IMG/VR virus record: IMGVR_UViG_3300036768_001520
Coordinates: 1-37,929 of that record
Source: a virus
DNA: 37,929 nt
Reading direction: 5' to 3' (one strand)
Shown piece after piece: positions 1,838-37,114 of this stretch. A model generated the notes under the pieces. The model saw only the letters and a list, made by a program, of their open reading frames with translations, was not told the origin of the DNA and made no database searches. Made by a program: the position numbers and the translations under genes. Every line of letters begins with the position of its first letter. The first letter of the stretch is position 1.

Positions 1838-2694
1838 CTTATTTCCTTTACGTATTTGATAAAGTCTTTTACAGCTTCGTCGTCTTCATCATCCAGTAAT
1901 TCCTGCCAATAGTCAGTATTATCATCTGAATTGCAGTAAGAATCTGTGGGACTAACAAAACTGGCCTGTGCTATCTTGTCAGTCGACGGTATTTGATGAA
2001 GATCATCCTCAGAAATAACATAACCCTTTATAATACTATGACCGAGGGCGCGCGCTTTCCACAATCGATGAATACCATCTGCTATAAACATTCCATCAGG
2101 ATATTGGATTACAATTATGGGAAATGTAAGACTGGTCCTATCTACTCTCTCTATGAACTTAGGAGAGCCAGGATAATCACCGCTAGTATAAGTATCCTGC
2201 GGCGACGGTTTTAAATTAGTTTCTGCTAAAGTTGCTACACTCAATTCGCTCACTGCAATTCTATTATCGTTTATAAACTTGTGTATATCTGACATTTTAT
2301 ATTCTTTATTGTTGTCAGTAAACACCTGATTCATCCAACGCACTGCAGCATTTTTTTTAGGTTTTTTAGTACGTCTGCGTTTCGCTACCCACTCTTGAAT
2401 ACTTTTGACTTTACCATCACGATATGCGTCTAAAAATGCAGTCCAACCCTCGCTCAAATCATAGTTTTTCTTAAAAAAGAATCCGCTTTCATAATTATAA
2501 TCAGAAGCATACTTTATATATACTGATTCAAATACATGTTTGCTATTTGACAACATTGCCTTTTCAATAAAATTTACGTCTAATTGTAACTCAGTAATCT
2601 TATTGAGAACATCTGTGGAAAAATCATTATTGATCCGTGCACCTAAGGTGAGCAGATCACTGTAGATAGTTTTTAGAAATTCCAGTTGATTCAT
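1831..2694 (-). CDS. ParB/sulfiredoxin-fold-like protein
   Basis: A 287-residue protein starting at the ATG at 2694, which overlaps the stop of the upstream gene as ATGA. The segment from about residue 191 to 226 has the look of the ParB N-terminal/sulfiredoxin fold. A strand (FPIIVIQYPDG) is followed by I-A-D-G-I-H-R (D206, G207, H209, R210), a helix containing KARALGH, and a strand (IIKGYVI). In this superfamily the D-G-x-H-R motif binds or hydrolyses nucleotides. The N-terminal 190 residues are unlike ParB and include a basic segment (KRRRTKKPKK, ~105-114). The C-terminus is acidic. It could be a ParB-like nuclease, a kinase-type relative or a DNA-binding regulator. The fold is a fair guess; the function is open. 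Confidence 0.6.
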   Translation of the reverse strand: MNQLEFLKTIYSDLLTLGARINNDFSTDVLNKITELQLDVNFIEKAMLSNSKHVFESVYIKYASDYNYESGFFFKKNYDLSEGWTAFLDAYRDGKVKSIQEWVAKRRRTKKPKKNAAVRWMNQVFTDNNKEYKMSDIHKFINDNRIAVSELSVATLAETNLKPSPQDTYTSGDYPGSPKFIERVDRTSLTFPIIVIQYPDGMFIADGIHRLWKARALGHSIIKGYVISEDDLHQIPSTDKIAQASFVSPTDSYCNSDDNTDYWQELLDDEDDEAVKDFIKYVKEIRC

Positions 2695-3443
2695 AATACA
2701 TCCAAAATTCTTCTATTTTCCAATAACACTCTGGTTACATACTTGGTGAGCGGCAATCTGTGCAGAACACCACGTTCCACTAGCTCATGAATTATTTTAG
2801 GATCTTCTTTAAGAATGGAGTTCAATATCTCTCCACCATATCTAGGATGTATACGCGGCAAAAGATCTAAGTTTTTTGAAATTGAGTTTTCAACACCATC
2901 TGAAAATTTAAAATTAAATTTAGCTTTATAATAAAATGCTCTTAATATTCTGTTTGGAGAGCTCTTAAATGATAAATCACAGTCTAGTGGACAATCAATT
3001 ATACCGTCTTGTATATCGCTAAAGCCTCTTTTAGTAATATCTATAATATTTTTCATATCAAGTGTCATTAATAATGTATTTATAGTAAAATCTCTACTAT
3101 AAGTCTCTCTTGTAATATCATCAATATCATCGACACCAATGTCTTCAAGTAGTTTATCGATATTCTTATACATAAAATTACTTGAAAAGTCGAACTTTAT
3201 ACCACATGCAATGACTTGGTAATGGCCATCTCGCAATTTTCTAGCAGATGTTCCGACACTGTCAGCAAAAAGACGTGCTAATTTTGAAACATCCTTATTG
3301 CCAGTGGTTATATCAAAGTCATTAAATTCAATTTTATGTTTCAAAGTGACATCTCTGGGTACACCGCCAACTATATATGGCGTACCAAGACCATTTTCTT
3401 CACTTAGTTGTTGAATTTTACCAAGCAATTCTTTAAAATTCAT
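2691..3443 (-). CDS. CCA-adding enzyme / poly(A) polymerase head-domain protein
   Basis: A 250-residue nucleotidyltransferase of the bacterial (class II) tRNA CCA-transferase/poly(A) polymerase family. Seen directly are the signature Y-I-V-G-G-V-P-R-D (G26, G27, R30, D31), the catalytic pair D42-F-D44, the R-D-F-T-I-N-T-L-L motif (~residue 118) and the neck motif N-R-I-L-R-A-F (~164). Class II enzymes are usually about 400 residues. This one holds the head and neck but little body or tail, so tRNA recognition may be reduced or supplied by another protein. The start ATG at 3443 overlaps the upstream stop (TAATG). The likely reaction is adding nucleotides to RNA 3' ends, for example repair of tRNA ends during infection. 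Whether it adds CCA or A cannot be read here. Confidence 0.82.
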   Translation of the reverse strand: MNFKELLGKIQQLSEENGLGTPYIVGGVPRDVTLKHKIEFNDFDITTGNKDVSKLARLFADSVGTSARKLRDGHYQVIACGIKFDFSSNFMYKNIDKLLEDIGVDDIDDITRETYSRDFTINTLLMTLDMKNIIDITKRGFSDIQDGIIDCPLDCDLSFKSSPNRILRAFYYKAKFNFKFSDGVENSISKNLDLLPRIHPRYGGEILNSILKEDPKIIHELVERGVLHRLPLTKYVTRVLLENRRILDVL

Positions 3444-8508: not shown

Positions 8509-8835
8509 TCACAGATCTCTGCGCAAGCAATCTATACGAGCCATGATCTGTTGTATTTCTGGATCTTTTTGACAAAGCTTGCGGATCTTCTTAACTGCGC
8601 CGCCATATCGCTTACCACCATTAGAATAATCTAAGTTTCCATGAATAAGCTTATGTATAGTAGTTTGACATAATCCGAGTAAGTATGCTACTTCCATCTG
8701 TGTCTTTTGCTCAAAAAAAATAAGCTTCACTACTTCGCTTTGGCGTTTTGTGAGCTTATTGTCTATTATATCTTTTATTTTAAATATGAGCTGTTCAGTT
8801 AGCTCTAACAATTCATCCTTAGCTTCAGCGGACAA
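8509..8835 (-). CDS. Helix-turn-helix protein (sigma region 4-like), start out of frame
   Basis: The in-frame start available is a TTG at 8835, giving 108 residues. The segment L-T-K-R-Q-S-E-V-V-K-L-I...M-E-V-A-Y-L-L-G-L-C-Q-T-T-I-H-K-L resembles sigma-70 region 4 or a LuxR-type HTH, so a transcription regulator is likely. The same frame stays open upstream for another ~35 coding-looking codons (I-A-K-S-D-S-V-Q-Y-Q-Y-R-E-V-L-I-D-P-S-I) to 8934, but without a start codon. Just beyond, at 8941, is an ATG preceded by AAGGA but in the other frame (M-V-I-Y-R-stop). Removing one T from the TTT at 8932-8934 would join them into a ~143-residue protein. So the gene is probably longer and carries a one-base shift or an assembly error. 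Confidence 0.65.
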   Translation of the reverse strand: MSAEAKDELLELTEQLIFKIKDIIDNKLTKRQSEVVKLIFFEQKTQMEVAYLLGLCQTTIHKLIHGNLDYSNGGKRYGGAVKKIRKLCQKDPEIQQIMARIDCLRRDL

Positions 8836-8946
8836 GTCATCCTCTGTGCTTAGAGATGAAAGAGTAGATAGAATTGATGGGTCAATTAATACTTCCCGAT
8901 ATTGGTACTGGACCGAATCTGACTTAGCGATAAATCACCATTTCCT

Positions 8947-9669
8947 TCAATTGTTCGTATTAATATACGCCCAATAATATCCTTTGTGTATTTTGCGCTC
9001 ACCTTTACAGCATCTCGCAACATTGGATATATTAAAGTTTTCTTTAGCAGCAGAGGTGATGGAGCTGTACTCTTTCATCTCACCCGTGACAGGATCGATT
9101 CGCTCCACTGCTTTTGAATGTATTGTTCCATTTTTAATTCTTTGTTCTTTGGAGATAATTTTGCCTGATTGGACCATACGCATCTTTTCAATAGATGCTG
9201 CGGTATGTTTTCGTCCTCTATTCTTATCGCCTATTTTCTTTTTATGTTCTTCACTATGTGGACCCTGAATTTTGCCCACATGAGCTGCTGATATTTTAGC
9301 CTTGTGTTCCTCAGAGAACTTGCGTCCTTTAAGTTTGGCTGATGCTTTAGCAAGTGACTCAGGAGTTCGTTTGAGTCCTCGCATTGAGGCGCCAGCAACT
9401 TTAGCTATATTATACACTGGTTTTAAACCATCGATGCACAGTTGCTCATAGAATAATAGGTTGTCTTTATCACAAAACAATACGGGGATAAATCTGAATG
9501 CTTCCTCCCCGTATTTAGTAAATGCTCTTTGTAAATGTTGATTTTTGTGCGTATTAGTGCGCAACTGTGAAAAGTGAGTCCATTTTCTTCTGGGCAAATT
9601 TATAGCGGAGCCAATATAAAAATGACCATTAATAAAGTTCTCTATTTTATAAATACCACAATTGCTCAT
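8947..9669 (-). CDS. GIY-YIG homing endonuclease
   Basis: A 240-residue protein with the GIY-YIG nuclease core at its N-terminus: C-G-I-Y-K-I-E-N (residues 4-10) and H-F-Y-I-G-S-A (~16-22), then R/H residues and the metal-binding Glu region L-F-Y-E-Q-L (~75). It is followed by several NUMOD3-type DNA-binding repeats (R-T-P-E-S-L-A-K-A, F-S-E-E-H-K-A-K-I-S, H-S-E-E-H-K-K-K-I) and a NUMOD1/IENR-like C-terminus (I-T-S-A-A-K-E-N-F). This is the usual architecture of phage seg-type or intron endonucleases, which cut an uninvaded allele to spread the gene. It lies between the primase and the HTH gene with too little flanking sequence for a group I intron, so it looks free-standing. Confidence 0.92.
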   Translation of the reverse strand: MSNCGIYKIENFINGHFYIGSAINLPRRKWTHFSQLRTNTHKNQHLQRAFTKYGEEAFRFIPVLFCDKDNLLFYEQLCIDGLKPVYNIAKVAGASMRGLKRTPESLAKASAKLKGRKFSEEHKAKISAAHVGKIQGPHSEEHKKKIGDKNRGRKHTAASIEKMRMVQSGKIISKEQRIKNGTIHSKAVERIDPVTGEMKEYSSITSAAKENFNISNVARCCKGERKIHKGYYWAYINTNN

Positions 9670-9705: not shown

Positions 9706-10458
9706 TTAATTATCAGTATTTATTTTGTATTTCAAAAAGTATTCGTCTAAATCTTTTACGTCTTGCGGTAAATTGGCCTTTTCTATATTGAGGCCTAAGT
9801 TTGTGTATTTTTTAAGTACTTTTTCGGATGATATCTGCCCCGCTTCATCATTATCGAACATTAATTTTATATTATCTGTATACCTAGCTAATATGACTAG
9901 CTGTTGTCTAGTAAGCATCGTTCCACTTGTAGCTACCACGTTTCTCATTCCATTCTGGAAAGCAGTGATAACATCAAAATTTCCCTCTACTATATACACC
10001 TTATTATGCTTACGGATGCTGTCTCTAGTAAAATTAAGACCATATAGACAATTACCCTTCTTAAATGAAGTATTAATATATTTTGCTAAGCCCAACTCGG
10101 TACGCTTAGTTTCAGGATATAAGCACCTACCAATAATAGCTATGTCTTGACCGAATTCATTATAAATAGGAATTATCAGTCTGTGTACCAAAAATTTGGA
10201 AGTTAAATAGCCATCATCACCTTTTGATATTATTCCAGTCTTAAAAGCCACCTTTCTGCCCATAAATCTGGCAACTAGCTCACAATCATCGGGAAAACTA
10301 CCTATTTTAAACTTATTAATTGTAGCATCACTAATGCCGCGTTTGTGCAGATACTTTAAGACTGGGTTATTATTCCCAACAAATAGATTGGCATGACATA
10401 AATTTATTAACTTAGCAATACCAAGTCGCTTTTCTTCTTCTGTAATTTCAACCATCAT
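9706..10458 (-). CDS. dnaG: DnaG-type primase catalytic (TOPRIM) subunit, lacking zinc domain
   Basis: A 250-residue protein corresponding to the RNA-polymerase core of bacterial DnaG. Residues ~32-55 carry Y-L-H-K-R-G-I-S...I-N-K-F-K-I-G, the hallmark just after the zinc domain in DnaG. The TOPRIM acid E158 is in V-E-G-N-F-D-V, and D202-N-D204 is in F-D-N-D-E-A-G. The end (L-P-Q-D-V-K-D-L-D-E-Y) matches the 'lP.gkDpDe' element. There is neither an N-terminal CHC2 zinc finger nor a C-terminal helicase-binding domain, and the usual DnaG is about 600 residues. The zinc finger is found on a separate gene at 34685-35320. The start ATGATG overlaps the stop of the zinc-ribbon gene upstream. It makes RNA primers for the phage fork. 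Confidence 0.88.
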   Translation of the reverse strand: MMVEITEEEKRLGIAKLINLCHANLFVGNNNPVLKYLHKRGISDATINKFKIGSFPDDCELVARFMGRKVAFKTGIISKGDDGYLTSKFLVHRLIIPIYNEFGQDIAIIGRCLYPETKRTELGLAKYINTSFKKGNCLYGLNFTRDSIRKHNKVYIVEGNFDVITAFQNGMRNVVATSGTMLTRQQLVILARYTDNIKLMFDNDEAGQISSEKVLKKYTNLGLNIEKANLPQDVKDLDEYFLKYKINTDN

Positions 10459-11156
10459 ATATTATCTATTCTGATACTTGCTTTTAAATCCTCAGAGACA
10501 TCGCCAGTTTTTTCATCAACAAATCTTTGTCTTAGCAACTCTGCTTTTTTAGCAGCCGCTCCTTTGTCTTTTTTGGATACTGTGATTTTAGGACGACCTT
10601 GAGAAACATCAGAATCCCCATCGTCTACCAATCCATCAAAAGAAGCGGACGGGGTTGAAATTTTTGGCTCTACTTTATTTTCAGTCTTATTCTGCTGTAT
10701 TTCAGCTGGCTTAGTAGATACGGTTATTGGCTTATTGACAATTACTGCGCCTTCAGCACTTTTTGATATAGGCTCCACACCTTCGCCGCATTCAGGCTTA
10801 ACTGATGTCATGTCTATAACTTCAATATCTGGCTTTATCTTCAAAGCGCTCAAGAAGTATTTTGTAAGATGCACATTTACTTCTTTACATGCTTTACAGC
10901 CAACCTTGAATAAGGTCTTGCTATATTTAAGTAGGACAGGCCCCTCCGACGAACCACAGGAGGAGCACTTCATTTCAATGGAGGGTTTTGGCTTACGCAT
11001 AATTTGTCCTTGAGCCAAGAGAGATGTCTTAATATATTGTGTAACATCGACTGGATTGCCACAAGCAACACATAGCACATCTCCACTGTCCTTATCAAGT
11101 TTGTGATAATCCTGAGCAAAGCAATCTTTGTTTGAACATGTTAATAACATTCCCAT
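10455..11156 (-). CDS. Double zinc-ribbon protein, unknown function
   Basis: The frame is open from an ATG at 11168. I prefer the ATG at 11156 (MGMLLTC), which has GGAG about seven bases upstream while the first ATG has none, giving 233 residues. Two zinc-ribbon-like units are visible. The first has cysteines in L-T-C-S-N-K-D-C and V-L-C-V-A-C-G; the second has M-K-C-S-S-C-G and V-G-C-K-A-C. The rest (from ~residue 110) is low-complexity Lys/Ser/Pro/Thr-rich linker with a short helical basic segment near the end (A-A-A-K-K-A-E-L-L-R-Q-R). It sits between recA and the primase gene, so a replication accessory or transcription-linked role is plausible, but no family is recognised. Confidence 0.75.
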   Translation of the reverse strand: MGMLLTCSNKDCFAQDYHKLDKDSGDVLCVACGNPVDVTQYIKTSLLAQGQIMRKPKPSIEMKCSSCGSSEGPVLLKYSKTLFKVGCKACKEVNVHLTKYFLSALKIKPDIEVIDMTSVKPECGEGVEPISKSAEGAVIVNKPITVSTKPAEIQQNKTENKVEPKISTPSASFDGLVDDGDSDVSQGRPKITVSKKDKGAAAKKAELLRQRFVDEKTGDVSEDLKASIRIDNI

Positions 11157-11177
11157 TTTATACTCCATTATACGCGA

Positions 11178-12326
11178 TCAATCATCGCTAGTGCTGTCCT
11201 CTTCACCATCGTCGGAAAAGTCAGTTGATTTAGCAGCCTGTTCGGCGGCCTCGTCGCTCAGTTCCATGGTGATCTCTATACCTGCAGCCTTGCGTTCTTT
11301 TATTTTTTCTAAAATCTCAGAACGCAACACAGCATCATTATCTAGCATATCAAAAAAGTTGTCTTTGCCACGAACTATCGTTTCGCCATATTTCCAGCTT
11401 TGGAGGTTAGGACGCTCTATAACTCCGTATGCGGCACCGAGTTTTGCTAACTCTTCACCTTGACGAACAACGCCTTTAGTAAAATCCAAGAAAAACTCCG
11501 CTTGGTGTTTGTTAATTCCACCACGAGATTTCTCTACAGTGGCAATGATCATATGACCCACCTTGTCACCGCGCGCATCCCTTAAGATATTCTCTTCCTT
11601 GGTAGAAGGGTGAAGCTTAATTGCAAAGTCAAGATTGTATCTGTAAGCACGACCACCACTGTAGCTTGGCTGAGAATTTGGCGTCATACTATCTCTCAAT
11701 TGGTTTATGCAAATCATACCAGCATTGGCCTTTGCCAACATTGGCTTTAACTGGCGTAAAGCTTTTGGAAGAAATCTTGCTAGCGCTGCCATTTCAAAGT
11801 CCTCTAGCTTGCGACCTTCCTCTGACGGAGGAACTAGCTGAGCAATAGAGTCTAATACGATTAGTTTAACATTAAGCTGACCACTAGCTACTAGATCAAG
11901 CACGCCTGGCACGACTTTCTTTGCCTTGTCATTAAACTTTCCACAGAGAGTGGTGAATATTTCAACAGCATTATTTGTATTGATAATTACTACGCGGCTT
12001 ATATCAAGACCAATTTTGCGTGCCCAGTCTTTATTAAAAGACAGTTCTGAATCTATCCAAACAACTTCTGATTTTGGATATTTATCCAGAGTTTCTTTAG
12101 CCATTAACATGGCCAAGAATGTTTTTCCACAGTTCTCTGGTCCATGAAATTGAGTTATCTTCCCATTAAGCGGGATGCCCCAAATACCAACTGCGCTGCC
12201 TAGTGATGGAGAGGGGTAATCAACAACCTCCCAATTTAACTTCAAAGCCTCGCTGGCTCTGAATAAAATATCTCCGCCCAATTCTTTGTTTAATTTTGCC
12301 CAAATATTTGCTGTATTTTCACTCAT
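11178..12326 (-). CDS. recA: RecA/UvsX-type recombinase
   Basis: A 382-residue strand-exchange ATPase. The Walker A motif G62-P-E-N-C-G-K-T69 is followed by a Walker-B-like strand ([10 protein letters not shown]). After it come the RecA switch segment G-M-I-C-I-N-Q-L-R and the Y-S-G-G-R-A loop that matches RecA 'P-G-G-x-A-x-x-F' loop L2. The C-terminus is acidic ([11 protein letters not shown]), as in cellular RecA, where it moderates DNA binding. It would coat ssDNA and drive recombination-dependent replication and repair with the SSB, SbcCD and RuvC-like resolvase encoded nearby. The start ATG overlaps the dnaJ stop (ATGA), with a GAGG site upstream. Confidence 0.95.
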
Positions 12327-13309
12327 AATAGTACCTCTTTTATTTTATCTCTCTGTTCATCCGTCAATTTTTCAGGATATTGAACTTCTAGCGTTAAAAT
12401 GTGACTTCCTAATGTATTGTTTACTGGATCCTTGGCTCCGCAATCGCGCAGCCTAATCTTTAGATTAGGATTTATGCACTCTTTAATGTTTATAACTTTC
12501 TCACCATGAATAGTAGTGACATTTAACTTACAGCCTAAAAGCACATCTTTCAGAGATACTTTTTGAATACTGTGAACGTCGGTGCCAACCCTAGTGAAGC
12601 TTGGATCTGGCATCACACTAATATCTATTAAAAGAGTATCCATATCAGAAACTTTTACTGTACAGGTGCTTCCAGTATCAACACAGGATGGTATCGATAC
12701 AGTATGATCTGAAATGCTTTGTATATTACCCAAACCATGACATTCTTGGCATGACTTGGTAAATTTAATACCGCGTCCATTGCACTTATTGCAGGTTTTA
12801 GATATAACTATATTGTGATGCTTCCCAGCCACAGTTCCCATTCCATTGCACTCTTCACATTTAATACAATCCTCTTCTGCAGCTCCCACACCATTGCAGC
12901 CCACGCACTTCTTATTGGATTTTATTTTAAATGTTTTATCTGTGCCTAAGCAAGCTTCTTTAAAAGACAGCACGGCGTGCACTCTATGAGTATTTCGGCG
13001 GGGCTGTGAGCGACGATTCGCACCCATGCCTGCTGCTCTAAATATCTCGTCTATATTTAAAAACGGATCAAAACCAACGTTTTTCCAAACGTTTGAAAAG
13101 TCTTGAGGATTATGTCCCGCGCCCGAAGATTTCGGATTATCATCAGTCAGCATTTGGTATGCTTGATTGATCTGCTTGAACTTTTCCTCTGCCTCGGCGT
13201 TTCCTTGATTTCGGTCTGGATGGTACTTCAACGCCAGTTTTTTGAACGCCTTTTTTATCTCTTCTTTTGACGACCCTGGTGCTATCTCTAATACTCTGTA
13301 TGGATCCAT
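12323..13309 (-). CDS. dnaJ: DnaJ-type co-chaperone with J-domain and zinc centre
   Basis: A 328-residue type I DnaJ. The J-domain occupies residues 1-60, with the catalytic H30-P31-D32 tripeptide that stimulates DnaK ATPase. A shortened linker (~60-110) with few Gly/Phe follows. Then come the four C-x-x-C-x-G-x-G repeats ([32 protein letters not shown]) and two beta-rich substrate-binding domains. No DnaK is in the window, so it presumably recruits host DnaK for phage protein folding or replication-complex remodelling, as in phage lambda replication. It has a GAGG site before the ATG. The first 167 bases overlap the end of the RuvC-like frame, which is unusual. Confidence 0.95.
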
Positions 13310-16945: not shown

Positions 16946-19900
16946 TCAAACTCCTATTCGCTCGACACTATTGAGCACCAATGATTTTTCAGAATTATAT
17001 TCATTTACAACAAAGGTGCCTCTTAGTGGTACGACTTTATCGAAATACTTAATTAGTTTATCATACTGATCTGGCCACACAGTCACCTCTATGGACTCAC
17101 CTATGGAATTTTCAAAAGTTAGCTTTCCAAATTTACGACCCGCATTTTTACCACTTTTTTTGATTACGAGCTCTTTACAGCTAGTAACTACACCCTCTAA
17201 AGATATTGACGTGTTACTCATCATTTGTTTTACTCTAGAAAATGATTGACTGTATGTCCCGCCCTTAAAGAATCCTGGGAATAGTTGCTCTACAGAGCCA
17301 GACAAATATGTGCCAAGAACTTCTTTTTCAAATGATAGCCTGTCCTTAAGATCCCACTCGTCAAGCTTGTGCTCAGAAGTAGATGACTTAAAGTCATCCA
17401 GGTAGTTGCTGAACGGTCTATCTCTATTACCCATTTCAAAATAATCATCGCTCAATTTTTTAATATATTTGCTTAGTTCCTTGCGAATGGTCTCATAATT
17501 CTCGCTTGCGTATTTTCTACCAATACCGAGGCAATCAAAAGCACCTGCCTTGGCCAAAGCTTGAATGGCCGTTTTGTTTACAGCACTAGACGATGTTCTG
17601 TAAAGGAAATCTTCAAATGATGCGTATGGCTGATTTGCAATAATATTGGCCAAAGCCTTGTCGCCCAGGCCCTTGATAGCAAGTAATCCAGTAACTATAG
17701 TTTTCTTATCAGAAATGCTATATAGATCTTTGCTCAAATTAATATCACATGGTTTTATTTGTATATTGAAACTTTTTGCATCCTTTTTAATATCTTCTAT
17801 ATCAGCTTCTGTGCTAGTGCTCTTGCGAGTCTCGGCATTGAGCTTGGCACAAAGCAAAGGAGCTGTAGCGTGCGCTTTATAGTACGCCGTGCGATAACTA
17901 TTTATTGAATATGCGATAGCATGCGAATTAGATGAGCACAATCCAGATGATAATACGAAATTATGTTCTGGATGATCTATTTCTAAGTCATAGGCTTGCA
18001 TAAATCCTAGATATTCTGCTCGTATAATTTTCCTGCCTTTAAGATTCCTAGTGTCGCATTTAATACTAGCTTTAAAAGGTTTTCTAAACTCATGCTCATA
18101 AGCTCGCCTGAGTATTTGAAGTTGTAATAATCTAGCCTGATCAGAGCCAGTTTTTTGTGGCGTATTATTTCGCTGTTCAGAGGCAGATCCCTTTCTACCA
18201 CTCGCTTGTACGTATCCTCCCCATATATTGGAGAGAAGTGTTGCGGGCCGTCGATTTCGATAGCGATCATTAATTCTTCGCGAACAAAATCCACTACCCC
18301 CTAATCCTCTCGGCACCCCAGGCATATTTTTTGATTTACAGCTATCTTTTGTGAGCCCGAAGATCTCCAGGTCGTTTTGCATGATTCTCCAGACTGGCTG
18401 TTGACCGTATTCGGTGAGCCACTTGTGGTCAAGACTGCATCTTTCAATGGTTCCATCATCAAACTCCAGTTCCCACATTGGCACTTCACCATGATCATGA
18501 AGCGCTACCACCTCGGACTCCACTGATTGGCCCTGTGAATTTATCGTTACCACCACATCCCCAGGTAGCACATTGGCAATCTCTATATCGCCTTTGTTTA
18601 ATACTTTTATCTTAGTAGATTTGGGCATACTTTTATTGAATCCATATTTACCGAATGGCAAAATAACATCATGCCAAATCATCTCCGCTTCTTCTTGAGA
18701 GATTTTACTAAATACCATTGAATCCTTGATAAATTCTGCGCCAGTCTTTTTCTGTAACTCTAAACCCTTCTCTTTCAATTTAGCGATTTTACGAAGACTA
18801 TCTGCTTTGGAACGATCCCATCCTGCAACCGCTGCTGCAATATGTAACATGTCCTCCTCATAAACCTTGATTCCATAAGTATGTTTCAAAATAGATGATA
18901 ACAATGGATGTTGATATGTGACTGGTTTGCGACCAGCTTTGCGTTCAATGAATTCTTGACGCTCAGCTTTAGATACACCTGGACGACCTAGTGCATTGAT
19001 AAGTGCAATGTCCTCTATGCTATTTGGTTGCAATGGTTTACACAGAGGTGCGAGTGTTGTGCCCTCTAATTGAAAACATCCTACTACACGACCAGATCGT
19101 ATCAATTTAAATGTAAGTTCGTCATATTCTGGAATATGATCTGGATCTGGAATGTTTAATCCAATATTTTTGGCCATCTCATATGCGTCTCGCAATATGT
19201 CTAATGTATCCAATCCTAGAAAATCTATTTTAACAAGCTTTACTTCTTCACAGGTATCCTTGTCGTAGGCCACGGCTACGCGGCCATCCTTGTCTGTTCT
19301 AAGTGGAACATAATCATCCAGAGGAATATCTGAAATAATTACACCTGCAGCATGAGTGGACATGGCACGAGGCAATCCTACGATCTCGTTTGCATAATCC
19401 AATAGCTCTGGATATTCCTGTACAAAAGTTTTGAGTTTTTTGGAGTATTTAAGCGCCCTATCCATAGTATCGATATCGATGACGGTATCATCTTCAGTTA
19501 CTTTGTCTGGAATATCTGCCGTAATCTCTTTGGCTAACTTAAATGCTGTGCTCTTATCGCCGCCAATATTTAATGATCTGGCAATATCTGAAATTGCAAC
19601 CTTTGGAGTAATCGTATTAATGTTAGAAATATAGGCCACGTGGCGAGGACCGTACTTTTGTCTAACATACTCCACTACGCGCTCGCGGCCTCTTGGAGAG
19701 AAGTCTGTATCAATATCTGGCAGGCTCTTCTTTTCCTTATTATGGAAACGCTCAAACAATAGCCCGTACTTAATAGAATCTACTGTATGAATGCCTAAGA
19801 AGAATGCTACCAAGCATCCAGCGCAAGATCCTCTGCCTGGGCCGACATCGATTTTGTTTTTACGAGCCCAATCAATAAAGTCTGCTACAATCAGCATGTA

Positions 19901-21136
19901 TGAACAGAAATTTCTACTTTCCAAAATATCAATTTCATAGAGTAGGCGATCCCAATATATTTTTTTTGTTTCTACTGGAAAATCTTTGGTATATTGCGTA
20001 AATACCTTCCAAACTTTATACCTAAGATATGCATTTTCTTCTCTTATTGCCTGCATATTTGGCTTAGATGCTAGCCAGCTTTCAAAGTCCTTTGCATCAT
20101 CACATTTTGATATATGGCTCCAATCAAATCGTGGTAGGCGATCGACGGTCGGCTCAAGATACTTGGGCTCTTCACAAATAGCAGCTATTTTGGCAGTATT
20201 GATTATAAGACGATTGGCGAACTCCTCGCCATACTCTTTCTTGAAAAAAGCCTTAATCTCTTCTTCGCTCTTAACATAAAACTCTGGACATGGCAAAATT
20301 CTGCCAATCCCAGTGCCTGCACACGAAATACATAACTTGTCACTGTCCTTCGGATACTTACTAGTCCCCTCGCATAATGCACAAGACATGTATGTTGCAT
20401 ATCTGTGTCTTGTTAAATCGTCTAATGGCTTCTTATCACTAATTGCTAGTACCATATCGTGATACTTTTCATGCTTAGGTGTTAAGTAATGAGAGTCGCA
20501 TGTAGCAACCATTTGAATATTTAGCTCCTCCGCAATCTCCTTGAGCTTATGATTTAAAAGTCTTTGATCAAATGTTATGCCAGTCTTCTTATCTGTGCGA
20601 GTAAGATTGTGCGGCTGCAACTCGATAAAAAAACGATCTCCAAAAATATCCTTGAATATCAATGCATATTGCTTGGCCTTTCCCATGTCATTGTGGAAAA
20701 TACTATTTGCAATTATGGAGCCACCACAAGCAGACGTTGCAAATAATCCTTCGCTATATTGTCTTAAGATACTCTCATCAACACGCGGATATTCCTTGCC
20801 CATAACTACAGTTGCGTGCTGAAATCCTACTGCAGTAATTTTAAGAAGATTTTTGTATCCATGATAATTTGCGGCCAAGAGCACCAGATGGCGGCGCTTC
20901 GACTTTTCATCATTTAGATCTTCAACAAAATATATCTCATTACCAGGGATAAGCTTTACGCCAGTAGCTTTTGAAGCTTTGTATGCTTCGTAGATGCCAG
21001 ACATAACACCATGATCAGTGACTGCAATTGCGGTCTGTCCCAATTCTTTGGCGCGTTTAAATAGTTGATTTACACGAATTATAGCATCTAACTGAGAGTA
21101 GCAAGTGTGCGAGTGAAGATTAGCAAAGCCTAACAT
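16946..21136 (-). CDS. dnaE: DNA polymerase III alpha subunit (DnaE) with intein
   Basis: A 1396-residue C-family replicative polymerase; removing the 235-residue intein leaves 1161, the usual DnaE length. The N-terminal PHP domain begins F-A-N-L-H-S-H-T, with V-T-D-H-G at ~39-43. The palm has G-P-G-R-G-S-C-A-G (432-440) and the catalytic P-D474-I-D476-T-D-F. The third acid is in K-I-D-F-L-G-L. The helix-hairpin-helix region follows the intein, and a C-terminal OB fold ends the chain (I-S-L-E-G-V-V-T-S-C). An insertion in the PHP region carries a zinc-knuckle-like set (C252-x2-C255, C269-x2-C272). No epsilon-type exonuclease, clamp or loader is visible here. It has an AGAGG site seven bases before the ATG, and the ATG overlaps the upstream stop. 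Confidence 0.97.
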   Translation of the reverse strand: MLGFANLHSHTCYSQLDAIIRVNQLFKRAKELGQTAIAVTDHGVMSGIYEAYKASKATGVKLIPGNEIYFVEDLNDEKSKRRHLVLLAANYHGYKNLLKITAVGFQHATVVMGKEYPRVDESILRQYSEGLFATSACGGSIIANSIFHNDMGKAKQYALIFKDIFGDRFFIELQPHNLTRTDKKTGITFDQRLLNHKLKEIAEELNIQMVATCDSHYLTPKHEKYHDMVLAISDKKPLDDLTRHRYATYMSCALCEGTSKYPKDSDKLCISCAGTGIGRILPCPEFYVKSEEEIKAFFKKEYGEEFANRLIINTAKIAAICEEPKYLEPTVDRLPRFDWSHISKCDDAKDFESWLASKPNMQAIREENAYLRYKVWKVFTQYTKDFPVETKKIYWDRLLYEIDILESRNFCSYMLIVADFIDWARKNKIDVGPGRGSCAGCLVAFFLGIHTVDSIKYGLLFERFHNKEKKSLPDIDTDFSPRGRERVVEYVRQKYGPRHVAYISNINTITPKVAISDIARSLNIGGDKSTAFKLAKEITADIPDKVTEDDTVIDIDTMDRALKYSKKLKTFVQEYPELLDYANEIVGLPRAMSTHAAGVIISDIPLDDYVPLRTDKDGRVAVAYDKDTCEEVKLVKIDFLGLDTLDILRDAYEMAKNIGLNIPDPDHIPEYDELTFKLIRSGRVVGCFQLEGTTLAPLCKPLQPNSIEDIALINALGRPGVSKAERQEFIERKAGRKPVTYQHPLLSSILKHTYGIKVYEEDMLHIAAAVAGWDRSKADSLRKIAKLKEKGLELQKKTGAEFIKDSMVFSKISQEEAEMIWHDVILPFGKYGFNKSMPKSTKIKVLNKGDIEIANVLPGDVVVTINSQGQSVESEVVALHDHGEVPMWELEFDDGTIERCSLDHKWLTEYGQQPVWRIMQNDLEIFGLTKDSCKSKNMPGVPRGLGGSGFCSRRINDRYRNRRPATLLSNIWGGYVQASGRKGSASEQRNNTPQKTGSDQARLLQLQILRRAYEHEFRKPFKASIKCDTRNLKGRKIIRAEYLGFMQAYDLEIDHPEHNFVLSSGLCSSNSHAIAYSINSYRTAYYKAHATAPLLCAKLNAETRKSTSTEADIEDIKKDAKSFNIQIKPCDINLSKDLYSISDKKTIVTGLLAIKGLGDKALANIIANQPYASFEDFLYRTSSSAVNKTAIQALAKAGAFDCLGIGRKYASENYETIRKELSKYIKKLSDDYFEMGNRDRPFSNYLDDFKSSTSEHKLDEWDLKDRLSFEKEVLGTYLSGSVEQLFPGFFKGGTYSQSFSRVKQMMSNTSISLEGVVTSCKELVIKKSGKNAGRKFGKLTFENSIGESIEVTVWPDQYDKLIKYFDKVVPLRGTFVVNEYNSEKSLVLNSVERIGV
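17927..18631 (-). other. Intein in DnaE (splicing domain)
   Basis: An in-frame insertion of 235 residues (DnaE residues 836-1070) splits the conserved Y-G-F-N-K-S-H motif of DnaE into Y-G-F-N-K and S-H-A-I-A-Y. The intein starts with Ser, contains the block B-like C-S-L-D-H (H904) after an E-L-E-F-D-D-G strand, and ends with block F/G: D-L-E-I-D-H-P-E-H-N-F-V-L and S-S-N, followed by Ser+1. Block spacing and wording closely resemble the cyanobacterial split DnaE intein (for example 'ELEDGSVIRATSDH' and 'DHNFLLANG'). The terminal residues are Ser1 and Asn with Ser+1, compatible with splicing. The usual penultimate His is Ser, which is tolerated in some inteins. The middle region is dealt with in the next entry. 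Confidence 0.92.
18007..18303 (-). pseudogene. Frameshifted Vsr/DUF559-like homing endonuclease domain inside the intein
   Basis: In a frame different from dnaE, the intein centre reads V-D-F-V-R-E-E-L...I-A-I-E-I-D-G-P-Q-H-F, then R-D-L-P-L-N-S-E-I-I-R-H-K-K-L-A-L-I-R-L-D-Y. This is the pattern of Vsr-like/DUF559 (EDxHD or PD-(D/E)XK-type) nucleases: a VDF..E strand, I-E-x-D-G-x-x-H, then R-D and L-I-R. The frame opens just after a TAG at 18301-18303 and ends at TAG 18007. The DnaE frame through this region is low-quality sequence rich in Arg, Gly and Asn. One fewer G in the G5 run at 18297-18301 would join L-G to V-V-D-F in frame. A compensating base change near 18070-18085 would return to the intein C-terminal frame. 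So the domain is probably dead, or read by frameshifting. Confidence 0.8.
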
Positions 21137-21492: not shown

Positions 21493-21741
21493 TCATGCTT
21501 CTTCTTCTACAATAAACCTAACTTGCATGGCAACTGGCTCGACAGCCTCCTGGTGCAAATTAAGGGCAGCAAGAACATCGCCAACATTATGACCCTCTAC
21601 TGTCTTAATATCTTCCTTATTGGCTTCTAAAATTATTCTTACCTTGCCTGGATCATCTTCCTTGGTACTTTGTACAGACTTGTACTCTCTTACAAAAAAA
21701 CCTACAACTGGCAATACTACACTCTTTGTTACCTTGCTCAT
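21493..21741 (-). CDS. Small hypothetical protein, 82 aa
   Basis: It starts at the ATG at 21741, overlapping the trigger-factor stop as ATGA. The protein has alternating strands and a helix: S-V-V-L-P-V-V-G-F-F-V-R-E-Y, K-V-R-I-I-L-E-A, then V-G-D-V-L-A-A-L and M-Q-V-R-F-I-V-E-E-E-A. It is small, soluble and acidic at the C-terminus. It lies between trigger factor and the polymerase cluster in one transcription unit. No recognisable motif. Confidence 0.68.
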   Translation of the reverse strand: MSKVTKSVVLPVVGFFVREYKSVQSTKEDDPGKVRIILEANKEDIKTVEGHNVGDVLAALNLHQEAVEPVAMQVRFIVEEEA

Positions 21742-23024
21742 GCTTTCTCCTTAACAACAGCACTATTTACCAAAAATTCCATCACTTTTTTGTGCTCACA
21801 TTGTGTGATAAAACCCTCATACATTCCTTGTTCACGAAGCCGCTCTAGAAACTCAGAAGTTGAGATTCCCTGCTGTGCAGCAGCGCCAGAGGCAGCAGCA
21901 GCAACCTCTTCTGGCGTAACTCTGATGGACTCTTCTTTTTCATAAATTTTATCCAAGATGTACGCTGACTTGACCGTCTTCTCAGCTATAGGCAGGAGCT
22001 GAGCGCGCAGAGACGGGTTATTCACAACGTCTTGTACGCGCATCTGCAGCCGCGAGGCGACCAAACGCAGTTCTTGCTCGACCCATGACTGTGGTGCTTC
22101 AAACGGAACCGCCGCAATTAGTTTGTCCATGATGGCTCCAAAAATCTGTGTTTTAACTACGGGGTTGTATTGCTCTTCCCACTTCTTTTGATAGTTTGCC
22201 ATCATTGCATCGACAGAGTCAAATGACAATAGTGCAGCAAAAGATTCGTTAAGTTCATGTGGCTTAAGTTCTACCACTTCTTTTATCTTACACTTAAATA
22301 CCACTTCTTTAGAACGAAGAGCCGTTGCTTGATAATCAGCTGGAAATGAAACTGTCGTCTCAAATTCTTCTCCAGAAGTGCGTCCAATAAATACGTCTTC
22401 TAGTTCTTTAATTAGTGTTTCTTCGCCCAAAATAAGAGATATATTCTCCTCCTTGGCACCTGTCAACGGCTCTCCATTAATAAATCCTTCAAAGTCCACC
22501 ATAACCTGATCGCCAACTTGAGCTGGACGCTCAACAGTAGACTTGTCTCCAAATAACAACTGTTGTTTTCTAATTTGTTTTGTAAACCACTTGCTGAAAC
22601 TGTTAGTATCAACCTCAACTTCAACGCCACGATAATCCTTCACCTCAATGTTTGGTGGAAGCATTACAGCAATTTTGAAGTTAAACGAACCATCCAGCTT
22701 GAACTTGCCAGGATATCTCTTCTTATCAGATACTTTAAATTCGTCCACCAGAACTGGATTGCCAATGTTCTTGAGTTTTTTCTGCTTAAGTCCTTCAATG
22801 ACTCCAGTTTGAATTAGACGCGTAGAAGCCTCTGCTCGCAAAGCTTCATGAAATTGACGCTTAACAAGCTCTACTGGAGCCGCGCCCTTTCTAAAACCAT
22901 TGATCTGAACTCGTTCTTTAAGCTGACCTGCTATTGTATCAATTTCTTTATCAACCTCTCCTCTAGGGATAGTGATATCCAATATGACATTAGAGTCATC
23001 TTGCTGTTCTAGCAATACTTGCAT
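21738..23024 (-). CDS. tig: Trigger factor, ribosome-associated chaperone
   Basis: A 428-residue full-length trigger factor. The N-terminal ribosome-binding domain contains the signature G43-F-R-K-G-A-A-P50, which docks on ribosomal protein uL23 in cellular trigger factors. An FKBP-type prolyl isomerase domain follows (V-G-D-Q-V-M-V-D-F-E-G, ~residues 168-245). The long helical C-terminal chaperone domain has the arm-like sequence S-W-V-E-Q-E-L-R-L. Its length matches E. coli Tig (432). It would sit at the exit tunnel and fold nascent phage proteins. The ATG has an AGAGG site. Phage trigger factors are known mainly from huge phages. It follows the giant 1810-aa gene by 30 bases, so it could be expressed along with it. 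Confidence 0.96.
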   Translation of the reverse strand: MQVLLEQQDDSNVILDITIPRGEVDKEIDTIAGQLKERVQINGFRKGAAPVELVKRQFHEALRAEASTRLIQTGVIEGLKQKKLKNIGNPVLVDEFKVSDKKRYPGKFKLDGSFNFKIAVMLPPNIEVKDYRGVEVEVDTNSFSKWFTKQIRKQQLLFGDKSTVERPAQVGDQVMVDFEGFINGEPLTGAKEENISLILGEETLIKELEDVFIGRTSGEEFETTVSFPADYQATALRSKEVVFKCKIKEVVELKPHELNESFAALLSFDSVDAMMANYQKKWEEQYNPVVKTQIFGAIMDKLIAAVPFEAPQSWVEQELRLVASRLQMRVQDVVNNPSLRAQLLPIAEKTVKSAYILDKIYEKEESIRVTPEEVAAAASGAAAQQGISTSEFLERLREQGMYEGFITQCEHKKVMEFLVNSAVVKEKA

Positions 23025-33488: not shown

Positions 33489-34688
33489 TTATTTCCTCAA
33501 TCTTATTATATCTAAGCCCGTACCTATGATATCATCAATGAATTCATATTCTGACATAGTGTTTTTAACAAATCTGGCAAACGCCTCTTCATCTGATGAG
33601 TGCTCTGTAATATGGGCATCGCGAGCCTGTCTGGGTGAAAATAGCAGGGGCTTAATCGGAGTGCAGTATTCCACCTTATACTTGTCTTTGACATACTCCT
33701 CCAGATGCTTGGGCTCTAAGAACCTAGAGTCTTCTGCTAAAATAAATATGCTTATTTTAATTATGCTATCTTTTAAATCAGTTGATTGTGCAAATTTATC
33801 TATCTCTTTAGTAACTTTGCTCATCAGCTCATCGGCGTATATTTGAGAGCTTAAGTCTAGTTTAAGTTCATAGATATCACGACAGGGCTCGTCCTTATAT
33901 TCCACCCGCTTATTTTGCAAATCTATAATAGCATACTTCTTTTTATGATTTTCAAATGCTCCTCGCTTCTCCATGGAACCCACATATGCAATATATGGCT
34001 CATCAGACAAAACATATGGAGTATGAACATGTCCCATGATAGTAATATCAATTTCATTGAACATACTTTTTGGAAGATATAATTCATTATTTCCATATAG
34101 CTCTGCATATTCTTCTGCAAACATTGTGCCTTCTATTGCAAAATGCCCTATCACTATCTTTGGAGCCTGATTGTCAATTTCTCCAAGAATATATGTAAAT
34201 GATGATTTGATCTTTGCAATTGCATCGTAATAAGTATCATCACCTATCCACTTACGATCGCGATATGGCATAAAAATTAGATTAGCTACTACTACGCCAT
34301 TTTTTTCTAATTTGCGCCAAGCAATGTCTTCGTGTACTTTTATATTATGAAGATTAAGCTCTTGTAAATAAGACAAGGTATTGGCATCATGAACTCGTTG
34401 TTGATCATGATTGCCAATTACGATATCTATGCTTTTAATACCCTGACTGAGAGCATAAGCTAAATTTTGAGAGAATAATTTTTGTTGAACAACAGATGGG
34501 TGTCTAGTTTCAAATATATCTCCTGTAAAGACAATCTCTTCGCAACCATCTGATACAATCTCATCAATAGTACGCTCAAGGGTCTTTGAATAATCTTTTA
34601 ATCGCGTATTTAATCCAGTCACACTGTCTTTTTGACCAAGGCTGTAATTGGCACCAAAATGGACATCTCCTATGATAGCTATCTTCAT
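33489..34688 (-). CDS. sbcD: SbcD/Mre11-like (gp47-type) nuclease
   Basis: A 399-residue calcineurin-like phosphoesterase. The metal-binding motifs are all visible: I-G-D-V-H-F-G (residues ~7-13), F-T-G-D-I-F-E, V-I-G-N-H-D-Q-Q, I-G-H-F-A-I and M-G-H-V-H-T-P. They match Mre11/SbcD and T4 gp47 and should carry two Mn2+ ions for end resection and hairpin opening. The C-terminal ~130 residues hold the capping and Rad50-binding parts. It is coupled to the SbcC gene that follows, and overlaps the primase-zinc gene by four bases (ATGA). Both partners have the size of the T4 pair. Confidence 0.95.
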   Translation of the reverse strand: MKIAIIGDVHFGANYSLGQKDSVTGLNTRLKDYSKTLERTIDEIVSDGCEEIVFTGDIFETRHPSVVQQKLFSQNLAYALSQGIKSIDIVIGNHDQQRVHDANTLSYLQELNLHNIKVHEDIAWRKLEKNGVVVANLIFMPYRDRKWIGDDTYYDAIAKIKSSFTYILGEIDNQAPKIVIGHFAIEGTMFAEEYAELYGNNELYLPKSMFNEIDITIMGHVHTPYVLSDEPYIAYVGSMEKRGAFENHKKKYAIIDLQNKRVEYKDEPCRDIYELKLDLSSQIYADELMSKVTKEIDKFAQSTDLKDSIIKISIFILAEDSRFLEPKHLEEYVKDKYKVEYCTPIKPLLFSPRQARDAHITEHSSDEEAFARFVKNTMSEYEFIDDIIGTGLDIIRLRK

Positions 34689-35320
34689 CTTGTTTCCTGT
34701 TCGTCTTTGTATAAAATTTCTCTACGATGCAATTCCATTAAAATCTGTGAATGAAAAGCCTTAGTTTGCTCAAAATCAGAATTTGCTAATTTTGCAAAAG
34801 TCTCATCTATGCGCTTAAAAATATGATCCGCCCACCTGCATTCTTTTTCATAATATGGCGTGTCCCGTCTAGTCGCCAGGTATTTTCTAATATGATGTGA
34901 CAAATCTATATTGAGATCAAACTGGAAATTGGCCAACTCTATTTCAGATATTCCGTTATTGGCCTCTTGTAACGACTCTAGTGTCACACTCCCATTGCTT
35001 ATTAAATCTGTAACAATATCGTGCCATGGAATACCCTCTGTCAGAGTTATAAAATCAAATATGTCTCCAGAGATATTGCATCCGAAGCACTTGTAAAACT
35101 TATCCCTATCTGAGAAATAAAAAGATGGCGACCTTTCAGATCCATTCTTGTGGAATGGGTTAGGACAAATACACCTGTGTGTAAACGTAGCAGATGCTAT
35201 GCTTTCTATTTTTTTACAATGCTTACTTGCTAGCCCTACAAATGAAAGCGTTGAGGCTAATGGTTTGGCTACGTTCTGCATCTCCTCTAAAGAAAGAGGC
35301 CATTCATTTTTTTGGTTCAT
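34685..35320 (-). CDS. Primase zinc-finger (CHC2) subunit
   Basis: A 211-residue protein whose residues ~43-92 are the CHC2 zinc-binding domain of DnaG: H-R-C-I-C52-P-N-P-F-H57, then S-P-S-F-Y-F, and F-Y-K-C78-F-G-C81-N-I-S-G-D. In DnaG this domain is N-terminal and reads the priming site. Here no TOPRIM core follows; the rest (~110-211) is a helical tail, perhaps helicase- or primase-binding. The missing catalytic core is on a separate gene at 9706-10458. The start ATG lies within the end of the upstream gene (17-base overlap), and the end overlaps sbcD, placing this half in the SbcD/SbcC operon. Confidence 0.9.
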   Translation of the reverse strand: MNQKNEWPLSLEEMQNVAKPLASTLSFVGLASKHCKKIESIASATFTHRCICPNPFHKNGSERSPSFYFSDRDKFYKCFGCNISGDIFDFITLTEGIPWHDIVTDLISNGSVTLESLQEANNGISEIELANFQFDLNIDLSHHIRKYLATRRDTPYYEKECRWADHIFKRIDETFAKLANSDFEQTKAFHSQILMELHRREILYKDEQETR

Positions 35321-36064: not shown

Positions 36065-36567
36065 GAATTATCAAGGTAGTATTGTTCAAATTGTAAAGAG
36101 ATCTTCTCATTTTGATCATCGTCAAGCATCTTAATATTATTGTTAAAATAGTGCGCCAACTCATGTATAAAGTCAGTATTGTCTGTTGATAACGCATCGT
36201 ATGATATATACATCTTGCCTATATTATCACGATACCTTCCGTGAAGCTGTACTCCAGCTGGCCTGGTAAACAACCTATCATCATTCAGAGTATCATGTGG
36301 CATCAAATATATGGTAAGCTTAATACTAATCCTGTCAAGCGAATAGCCATATCTGTTTATAAAATCTGGAAATAGAAAAAGTGCCTTGCGATACTTTGCT
36401 GACAATGACGTCAAATCAGTATCTGAAAGCACTTTTTCAGAGCAAATGTCTATATTTTGTATTTGGTATTTATGATCACATCTGTTATAATATGTGGCAG
36501 CATGTGTGAGACTACAGAATAGAAAACAAACTAACAAACTAACTCTTGTATATTTTAATAACATCAT
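36061..36567 (-). CDS. Secreted HExxH metallopeptidase-like protein
   Basis: A 168-residue protein. The N-terminus is a classic Sec signal peptide: basic start K-Y-T-R, hydrophobic core V-S-L-L-V-C-F-L-F-C-S-L, and a likely cut after T-H-A. Near the end is H135-E-L-A-H139-Y-F, the HExxH zinc-protease motif, with acidic residues after it but no certain third ligand. The mature part is short (~145 residues) with Cys30 and Cys42 able to form a disulfide. It would act outside the cytoplasm, maybe on the cell wall or envelope proteins. The start lies inside the end of clpP (29-base overlap), without a clear ribosome site. The motif alone does not prove activity. Confidence 0.78.
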   Translation of the reverse strand: MMLLKYTRVSLLVCFLFCSLTHAATYYNRCDHKYQIQNIDICSEKVLSDTDLTSLSAKYRKALFLFPDFINRYGYSLDRISIKLTIYLMPHDTLNDDRLFTRPAGVQLHGRYRDNIGKMYISYDALSTDNTDFIHELAHYFNNNIKMLDDDQNEKISLQFEQYYLDNS

Positions 36568-37111
36568 CTGCTAAACCGTACTTTACTGCCTCTTCGGCTG
36601 TGAAATATTTATCTCCGCTAGCAAGATCTTCCTCTAGCTGTTTTACGTCCATACCCATGTACTTTGCTAAAAGTGCCATCATTTTATCTCTCATAACCTT
36701 GTTTATAGCCAACTCCTTTTTCATGGAATCTATTCTCAATTCATCAACTGAAAATATCGGCTCGTGCATCATGACGATAGTATGCTCATAAATAGAGCGT
36801 CTTTGGCCACAGGCCAGTAGTAAAGTTCCAGCAGACATAACATGACCCATGCCAATAGTGTGTATCGGGCATGGAATTGATCTGATAACATCATGAATAG
36901 CAAACATCACATTTAAATCACCACCGTAAGTGTTTATAAAAAGTCGAACTTCCTCGCCTGGGTCTTCTTTGGCCATCAAAAGAATAGACGTAATTAAATC
37001 TGGCGCCATCTCGTCGCAAATTTCACCAGATATCATTATATTACGTCCTTCATGAAGGTCATAATACCTTCTAGCTCTTTTGCGACGCGTCGTTTTCTTT
37101 TTAGTTGCCAT
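36539..37111 (-). CDS. clpP: ClpP-type serine protease
   Basis: A 190-residue ClpP. The frame opens at a GTG at 37114, but the ATG at 37111 with GAGAG upstream is the better start. The fold is complete: F-I-N-T-Y-G-G-D (the N-S-P-G-G-like oxyanion segment, ~59-65), nucleophile S93 in H-V-M-S-A-G, H116 in M-M-H-E-P, and the likely acid D168 in S-G-D-K-Y-F followed by T-A-E-E-A-V-K-Y-G-L. The N-terminus is unusually basic (K-K-K-T-T-R-R-K-R-A-R-R) compared with host ClpP, perhaps affecting gating or ATPase binding. No ClpX/ClpA is here, so it may pair with host unfoldases. A prohead protease role is another possibility. Confidence 0.94.
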   Translation of the reverse strand: MATKKKTTRRKRARRYYDLHEGRNIMISGEICDEMAPDLITSILLMAKEDPGEEVRLFINTYGGDLNVMFAIHDVIRSIPCPIHTIGMGHVMSAGTLLLACGQRRSIYEHTIVMMHEPIFSVDELRIDSMKKELAINKVMRDKMMALLAKYMGMDVKQLEEDLASGDKYFTAEEAVKYGLADDVIKIYKS

Positions 37112-37114
37112 CAC

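Follow-up and report, generated by a model that had tools for sequence, protein, structure and literature searches.

How does a phage make its primers when the DnaG-type protein it encodes has a catalytic core but no zinc domain? The question is raised by a fragmentary virus record whose main genes lie on the minus strand; the whole stretch that was analysed (37.9 kb) is called the window here. A sequence-only reading of this DNA had proposed that the primase is divided between two open reading frames (ORFs) about 24 kb apart. Both are indeed present, on the minus strand and separated by 24.2 kb (Table 1). We consider it quite probable that they belong to a DnaG-type primase whose functions are divided among several chains, with a core, a CHC2 protein acting in trans, docking on the helicase and probably a third subunit, and that this arrangement goes back to an ancestral fission.

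Table 1. Features of the window that are relevant to the primase (positions are those of the window).
Feature	Positions	Strand	Remarks
Core-only DnaG primase	9706..10458	-	250 aa; N-terminal core lobe and Toprim
ATGA overlap	10455..10458	-	Core gene starts where the double zinc-ribbon gene stops; from ORF coordinates
Double zinc-ribbon protein	10455..11168	-	237 aa in the window, about 112 aa in relatives; candidate third subunit
SbcD-like gene	33489..34688	-	Its start overlaps the end of the CHC2 gene by 4 bases; not proposed as part of the primase
Stand-alone CHC2 primase zinc-domain protein	34685..35320	-	211 aa; PF01807 match; predicted three-helix tail

The core ORF matches two Pfam domains, DNAG_N (residues 23-143, E 1e-16) and Toprim_2 (residues 155-240, E 1.1e-19), and no further Pfam domain was found before the first or after the second; the zinc domain is absent. 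This absence had been pointed out already, but the core is also short of everything after Toprim: the helices at the C-terminal end of the RNA-polymerase domain are missing, and so is a helicase-binding domain. Both domains are matched in all 43 aligned core sequences, and the acidic catalytic residues of Toprim (E158, D202 and D204) are invariant in 43 sequences; the window core is 31-41% identical to the others. Compared with the PDB, the core family matches DnaG polymerase domains (best E 6e-42), its closest solved relatives being bacterial primases.

The second ORF matches Zn_ribbon_DnaG/CHC2 (PF01807) with E 6e-13 and 48.8 bits (cut-off 24.9), and a search of the whole contig found it to be the sole primase CHC2 zinc domain of the window. 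Its zinc ligands are C52, H57, C78 and C81, where C-x4-H replaces the usual C-x2-H. All four are conserved in 17 aligned relatives, most of which have the C-x4-H spacing as well. The AlphaFold2 model (pLDDT 83.9) aligns with 1d0q (Z 7.0, rmsd 3.7, 97 aligned) and with 2au3 (Z 7.1, rmsd 3.3, 90 aligned). These are the top two matches in Foldseek and the only functionally coherent structural matches of the model; the family profile also matches the sequence of 2au3 (E 4e-16). As modelled, the protein has the fold of a DnaG zinc domain. The helical tail ascribed to this otherwise solitary zinc domain is predicted by AlphaFold2 too, as three helices at about residues 126-210. A structural search with the tail gave generic helical bundles and no specific relative, and no homology of the tail to phage G gp229 or to DnaB proteins was found. 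The tail of the window protein matches that of the clade only marginally when the profile excludes the window.

The chain solved as 2au3 is Aquifex DnaG with its zinc and polymerase domains, and the profiles of the two families align to adjacent stretches of it, CHC2 to residues 13-106 and the core to residues 111-345. This bears out the earlier claim that the core starts exactly where a zinc domain would end. On these profiles the cut between the zinc and core parts is clean, as the families tile one DnaG chain.

Is the split peculiar to this record? Scans of viral contigs with the single proteins CHC2, SbcD and UvsX found no relatives, and the CHC2 alignment was too variable to serve as a query. 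An alignment of the window core with the first relative succeeded, however, and found 65 loci. About 55 of them encode a stand-alone core of some 250-265 aa; nine encode long primases of 1,200-1,380 aa, mostly with CHC2 in front. One CHC2-only ORF and one core-only ORF occur in 31 of the 31 records with enough upstream sequence (35-481 kb), a set that includes near-duplicates with the same or nearly the same spacing (for example G043/G045 and G052/G053), so that independent genomes are fewer, and in which completeness is stated for no record. Sequence variety among the records is wide despite the near-duplicates. From stop to stop the CHC2-only ORFs measure 187-238 aa, except for one of 168 aa in G031, a divergent record. 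Each shares its strand with the core and lies 16.7-25.9 kb upstream (median 21.6 kb). The CHC2-less records that were checked have at most 22.5 kb of contig upstream of the core.

Such a layout could in principle be an artefact or a recent accident, caused by an assembly error, a frameshift or a GIY-YIG element that interrupted a primase gene. A candidate element is close at hand, for a GIY-YIG/NUMOD3 endonuclease ORF follows the core at a distance of 36 bases. Yet the core ends are unchanged in relatives that lack this ORF, which rules out a break by this element, whether as intron or as homing element, and no Rfam intron was found in the window. We regard an artefact or accident as practically negligible, because both truncated forms recur, identically split, in all 31 long relatives. 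This is the outcome of the survey of related large phages that had been suggested together with the original observation. The split primase is a conserved trait of the phage group and no local accident.

Some observations on mobile elements may be added. The endonuclease ORF (8947-9669) abuts a helix-turn-helix (HTH) gene (8509-8835), both on the minus strand within 8509-9669. The open frame of the HTH gene runs on upstream without a usual start codon and the relative in locus L002 has an intact N-terminus; it looks as if the homing-type element has displaced the gene's start. We also considered whether the HTH ORF could be the lost C-terminus of DnaG. This is ruled out, as in L002 the HTH gene is complete by itself and lies in a different frame. 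In loci L073/L074 (2158-2373 in the orientation of the CHC2 gene) CHC2 is separated from the place that SbcD occupies in relatives by a short ORF similar to the NUMOD portion of a homing endonuclease.

A complete DnaG elsewhere in the genome would tell against a primase in halves. The search of large relatives turned up none, within the limits set by fragmentary records. Among 21 of them there is no DnaB_bind domain (PF10410), of which a divergent form could escape detection, and no Prim-Pol above the cut-off, with one sub-threshold match in G044. That the primase is encoded in two separate parts is strongly supported, because one CHC2 and one core are found in 31 relatives, the catalytic residues are intact and no complete DnaG was found. 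Another view would be that the core-only protein is a different Toprim enzyme, with an RNA-binding or nuclease role like that of the DnaG of the archaeal exosome, and that the DnaG of the host does the priming. A core devoid of zinc and helicase-binding domains would suit such a role, and archaea provide a known example of a DnaG that serves another purpose (PMC4227792). But the DNAG_N and Toprim motifs are intact, the closest solved relatives are the bacterial primases mentioned above, the CHC2 protein accompanies the core in every one of the 31 records and the 21 large relatives yielded no other phage primase. We find this view very improbable.

In a maximum-likelihood tree, 61 split cores, including that of the window as their deepest branch, fall on one branch with support 100/95. 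Twenty other rows of the tree lie outside it, nearly all of them fused primases. The cores of loci L053 and L063 stand alone too, yet they sit on long branches among the fused forms; a common origin of every split form is neither demonstrated nor rejected (AU p 0.328). When Bacillus phage G is added to the tree, its core falls beside the clade, without strong support for that placement; a common origin of all the splits, with L053 and phage G included, is likewise neither demonstrated nor rejected (AU p about 0.33). Conservation shows that the fission is ancestral to this large-phage group and that both halves were kept throughout. In locus L061 (2624-6586) a 107-aa CHC2 frame is directly followed by a 1,213-aa frame that bears a core; here a split and a frameshift are both possible.

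The sequence-only reading spoke of a two-subunit primase. The separately encoded parts stand, but two may be too few, for the gene in front of the core, which encodes a double zinc ribbon, was missed. The ATGA shared by the two genes makes it likely that their translation is coupled. All eight cysteines of the double zinc ribbon (11, 16, 33, 36, 68, 71, 91 and 94) are invariant across 41 sequences. Its gene directly precedes that of the core, only a few bases off, in nearly all split loci; locus L053 and phage G lack it at that position. An independent scan with the double zinc ribbon as query brought in 77 newly fetched loci, some of them on contigs already known, and the core adjoins it in all 77. 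Family searches matched it neither to the primase zinc family nor, at any meaningful level, to another known family, and no fold was matched with significance; its model has a pLDDT of 71. Because its adjacency to the core is invariant, we think it likely that this protein is a core-associated third subunit which binds DNA or RNA.

The same observations allow a different assignment, in which the coupled double zinc ribbon is the true zinc partner of the core and the distant CHC2 protein no longer takes part in priming but has another task, for instance with SbcCD in recombination-dependent replication. The invariant cysteines and the adjacency to the core in all 77 loci found with the double zinc ribbon would agree with this, and so would the position of the CHC2 gene directly before SbcD in most loci. 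In the clade the CHC2 gene lies between a conserved gene and SbcD, a neighbour kept in most of the clade; its setting is the SbcCD neighbourhood, separate from the operon of the core. However, the CHC2 protein retains its ligands and the predicted fold of a DnaG zinc domain and is found in all 31 records, while the double zinc ribbon fails to match the primase zinc family. Moreover, the CHC2 genes of G031 and phage G are located near a helicase gene and apart from SbcD. We consider this assignment unlikely.

One DnaB-like helicase each was found in six of 16 records searched, and the N-terminal Pfam domain of DnaB was not recognised in the two such helicases that were checked. In G031, where CHC2 is not beside SbcD, the helicase gene lies one gene before CHC2. 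This proximity, in G031 and in phage G, is the best genomic hint that CHC2 works with the helicase. Record G006 (452 kb) encodes a helicase-loader-like ATPase just before its DnaB-like helicase (L087:101-979), with an apparent intein sequence within the P-loop region of the ATPase.

How might a primase in separate parts work? The 250-aa core, in which the catalytic motifs are present and invariant, would polymerise the RNA primer. Acting in trans, the CHC2 protein would read the start site on the template and hold the 5' end of the primer, as its family suggests. The helical tail of the CHC2 protein and the core may each dock on the DnaB-like helicase of the phage, which would substitute for a covalent linker; such docking would resemble that of T4 gp61, whose zinc domain sits on one helicase dimer and whose polymerase domain sits on another. 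The double zinc-ribbon protein, whose gene immediately precedes that of the core, would probably be an associated subunit that binds DNA or RNA. In our analysis the primase is probably reassembled in trans, on the helicase. In T4, changing the length of the gp61 linker has little effect on primer length (PMC10359460), and Corn et al. 2005 (as cited in PMC11253446) proposed action in trans for the DnaG zinc domain, between two copies of DnaG. A more specific scheme is possible, and we put it forward tentatively: a three-subunit, linker-free primase of bacterial type, composed of CHC2 with a helicase-docking tail, the core, and a double zinc ribbon of a new family that has taken over a role of the lost C-terminal domain of DnaG, for example contact with SSB or hand-off of the primer to Pol III.

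Several other genes of the window deserve mention. The gene for Pol III alpha (16946-21136, minus strand) has an in-frame, intein-like insert between the finger and HHH domains; it lies inside the conserved FNK/SHA stretch and ends with SSN ahead of SHAIAYS. There is a protein-quality set on the minus strand, with a DnaJ-like protein, a full trigger factor and a ClpP protease (12323-13309, 21738-23024 and 36539-37114), and a protein with the head domain of poly(A) polymerase / tRNA nucleotidyltransferase (2691-3443, minus strand). With regard to the host, a 106-aa core fragment near this group (L101:1-318) sits at the edge of a contig that was binned with Thioploca (JAAUSR010000177.1), which is possibly a hint.

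If the proposed arrangement is correct, it offers a naturally split primase, whose parts can be added, omitted or swapped without engineering. So far, the division of labour between zinc and polymerase domains, and the linker as a measure of primer length, have been studied with mutants of single-chain enzymes. It would also correct annotation, as the "two primases" of such phages are probably halves of one, and it gives an overlooked zinc protein a claim to be considered as a primase subunit.

We know of related arrangements elsewhere. According to one sentence in Iyer et al. 2021 (PMC7824862), the DnaG-like primases of group 2 jumbo phages tend to have a stand-alone zinc ribbon of the primase type alongside; there too, a separate primase zinc ribbon and a DnaG Toprim protein are encoded in one genome. 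Those phages have a family-B polymerase; the window carries Pol III alpha, the mark of group 3.2 of that paper. The relevant passages of the paper mention neither a constant upstream position nor a helical tail nor a double zinc ribbon coupled to the core. Text searches within an open-access library found no further description of a split primase. New here are the occurrence of the split in phages with Pol III, the constancy of its layout, a double zinc-ribbon family coupled to the core and the reading of the phage G "primases" as probable halves.

Among cultured phages, Bacillus phage G (NC_023719) encodes CHC2 alone (gp229) and a core alone (gp419), both annotated as "DNA primase". These two genes are 154 kb apart on opposite strands, whereas in the window's clade they share a strand at a distance of 17-26 kb, and the CHC2 gene of phage G has no SbcD neighbour; the helicase gene gp226 lies three genes before it. 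Neither CHC2 nor core was detected in Atu_ph07 by our models, possibly a limit of sensitivity; PF01807 misses the zinc domain of T4 too, so that these models may detect too few of the group 2 phages. Bacillus phage KLEB27-3 has a fused protein of 414 aa, and T4 and P-SSM2 each yield one core frame, 348 aa long in T4 and 326 aa in P-SSM2. Bacterial DnaG (E. coli, A. aeolicus) has a zinc domain and a catalytic core homologous to the two proteins of the window, but it is a single chain with a C-terminal helicase-binding domain, which the window core lacks. The T4 primase gp61, which works with gp41, lacks such a domain as well, and each of its two domains, zinc and polymerase, docks on a different dimer of the gp41 helicase (PMC10359460). 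In T4, however, these domains belong to one chain with a linker, while in the window they are encoded by two ORFs 24 kb apart.
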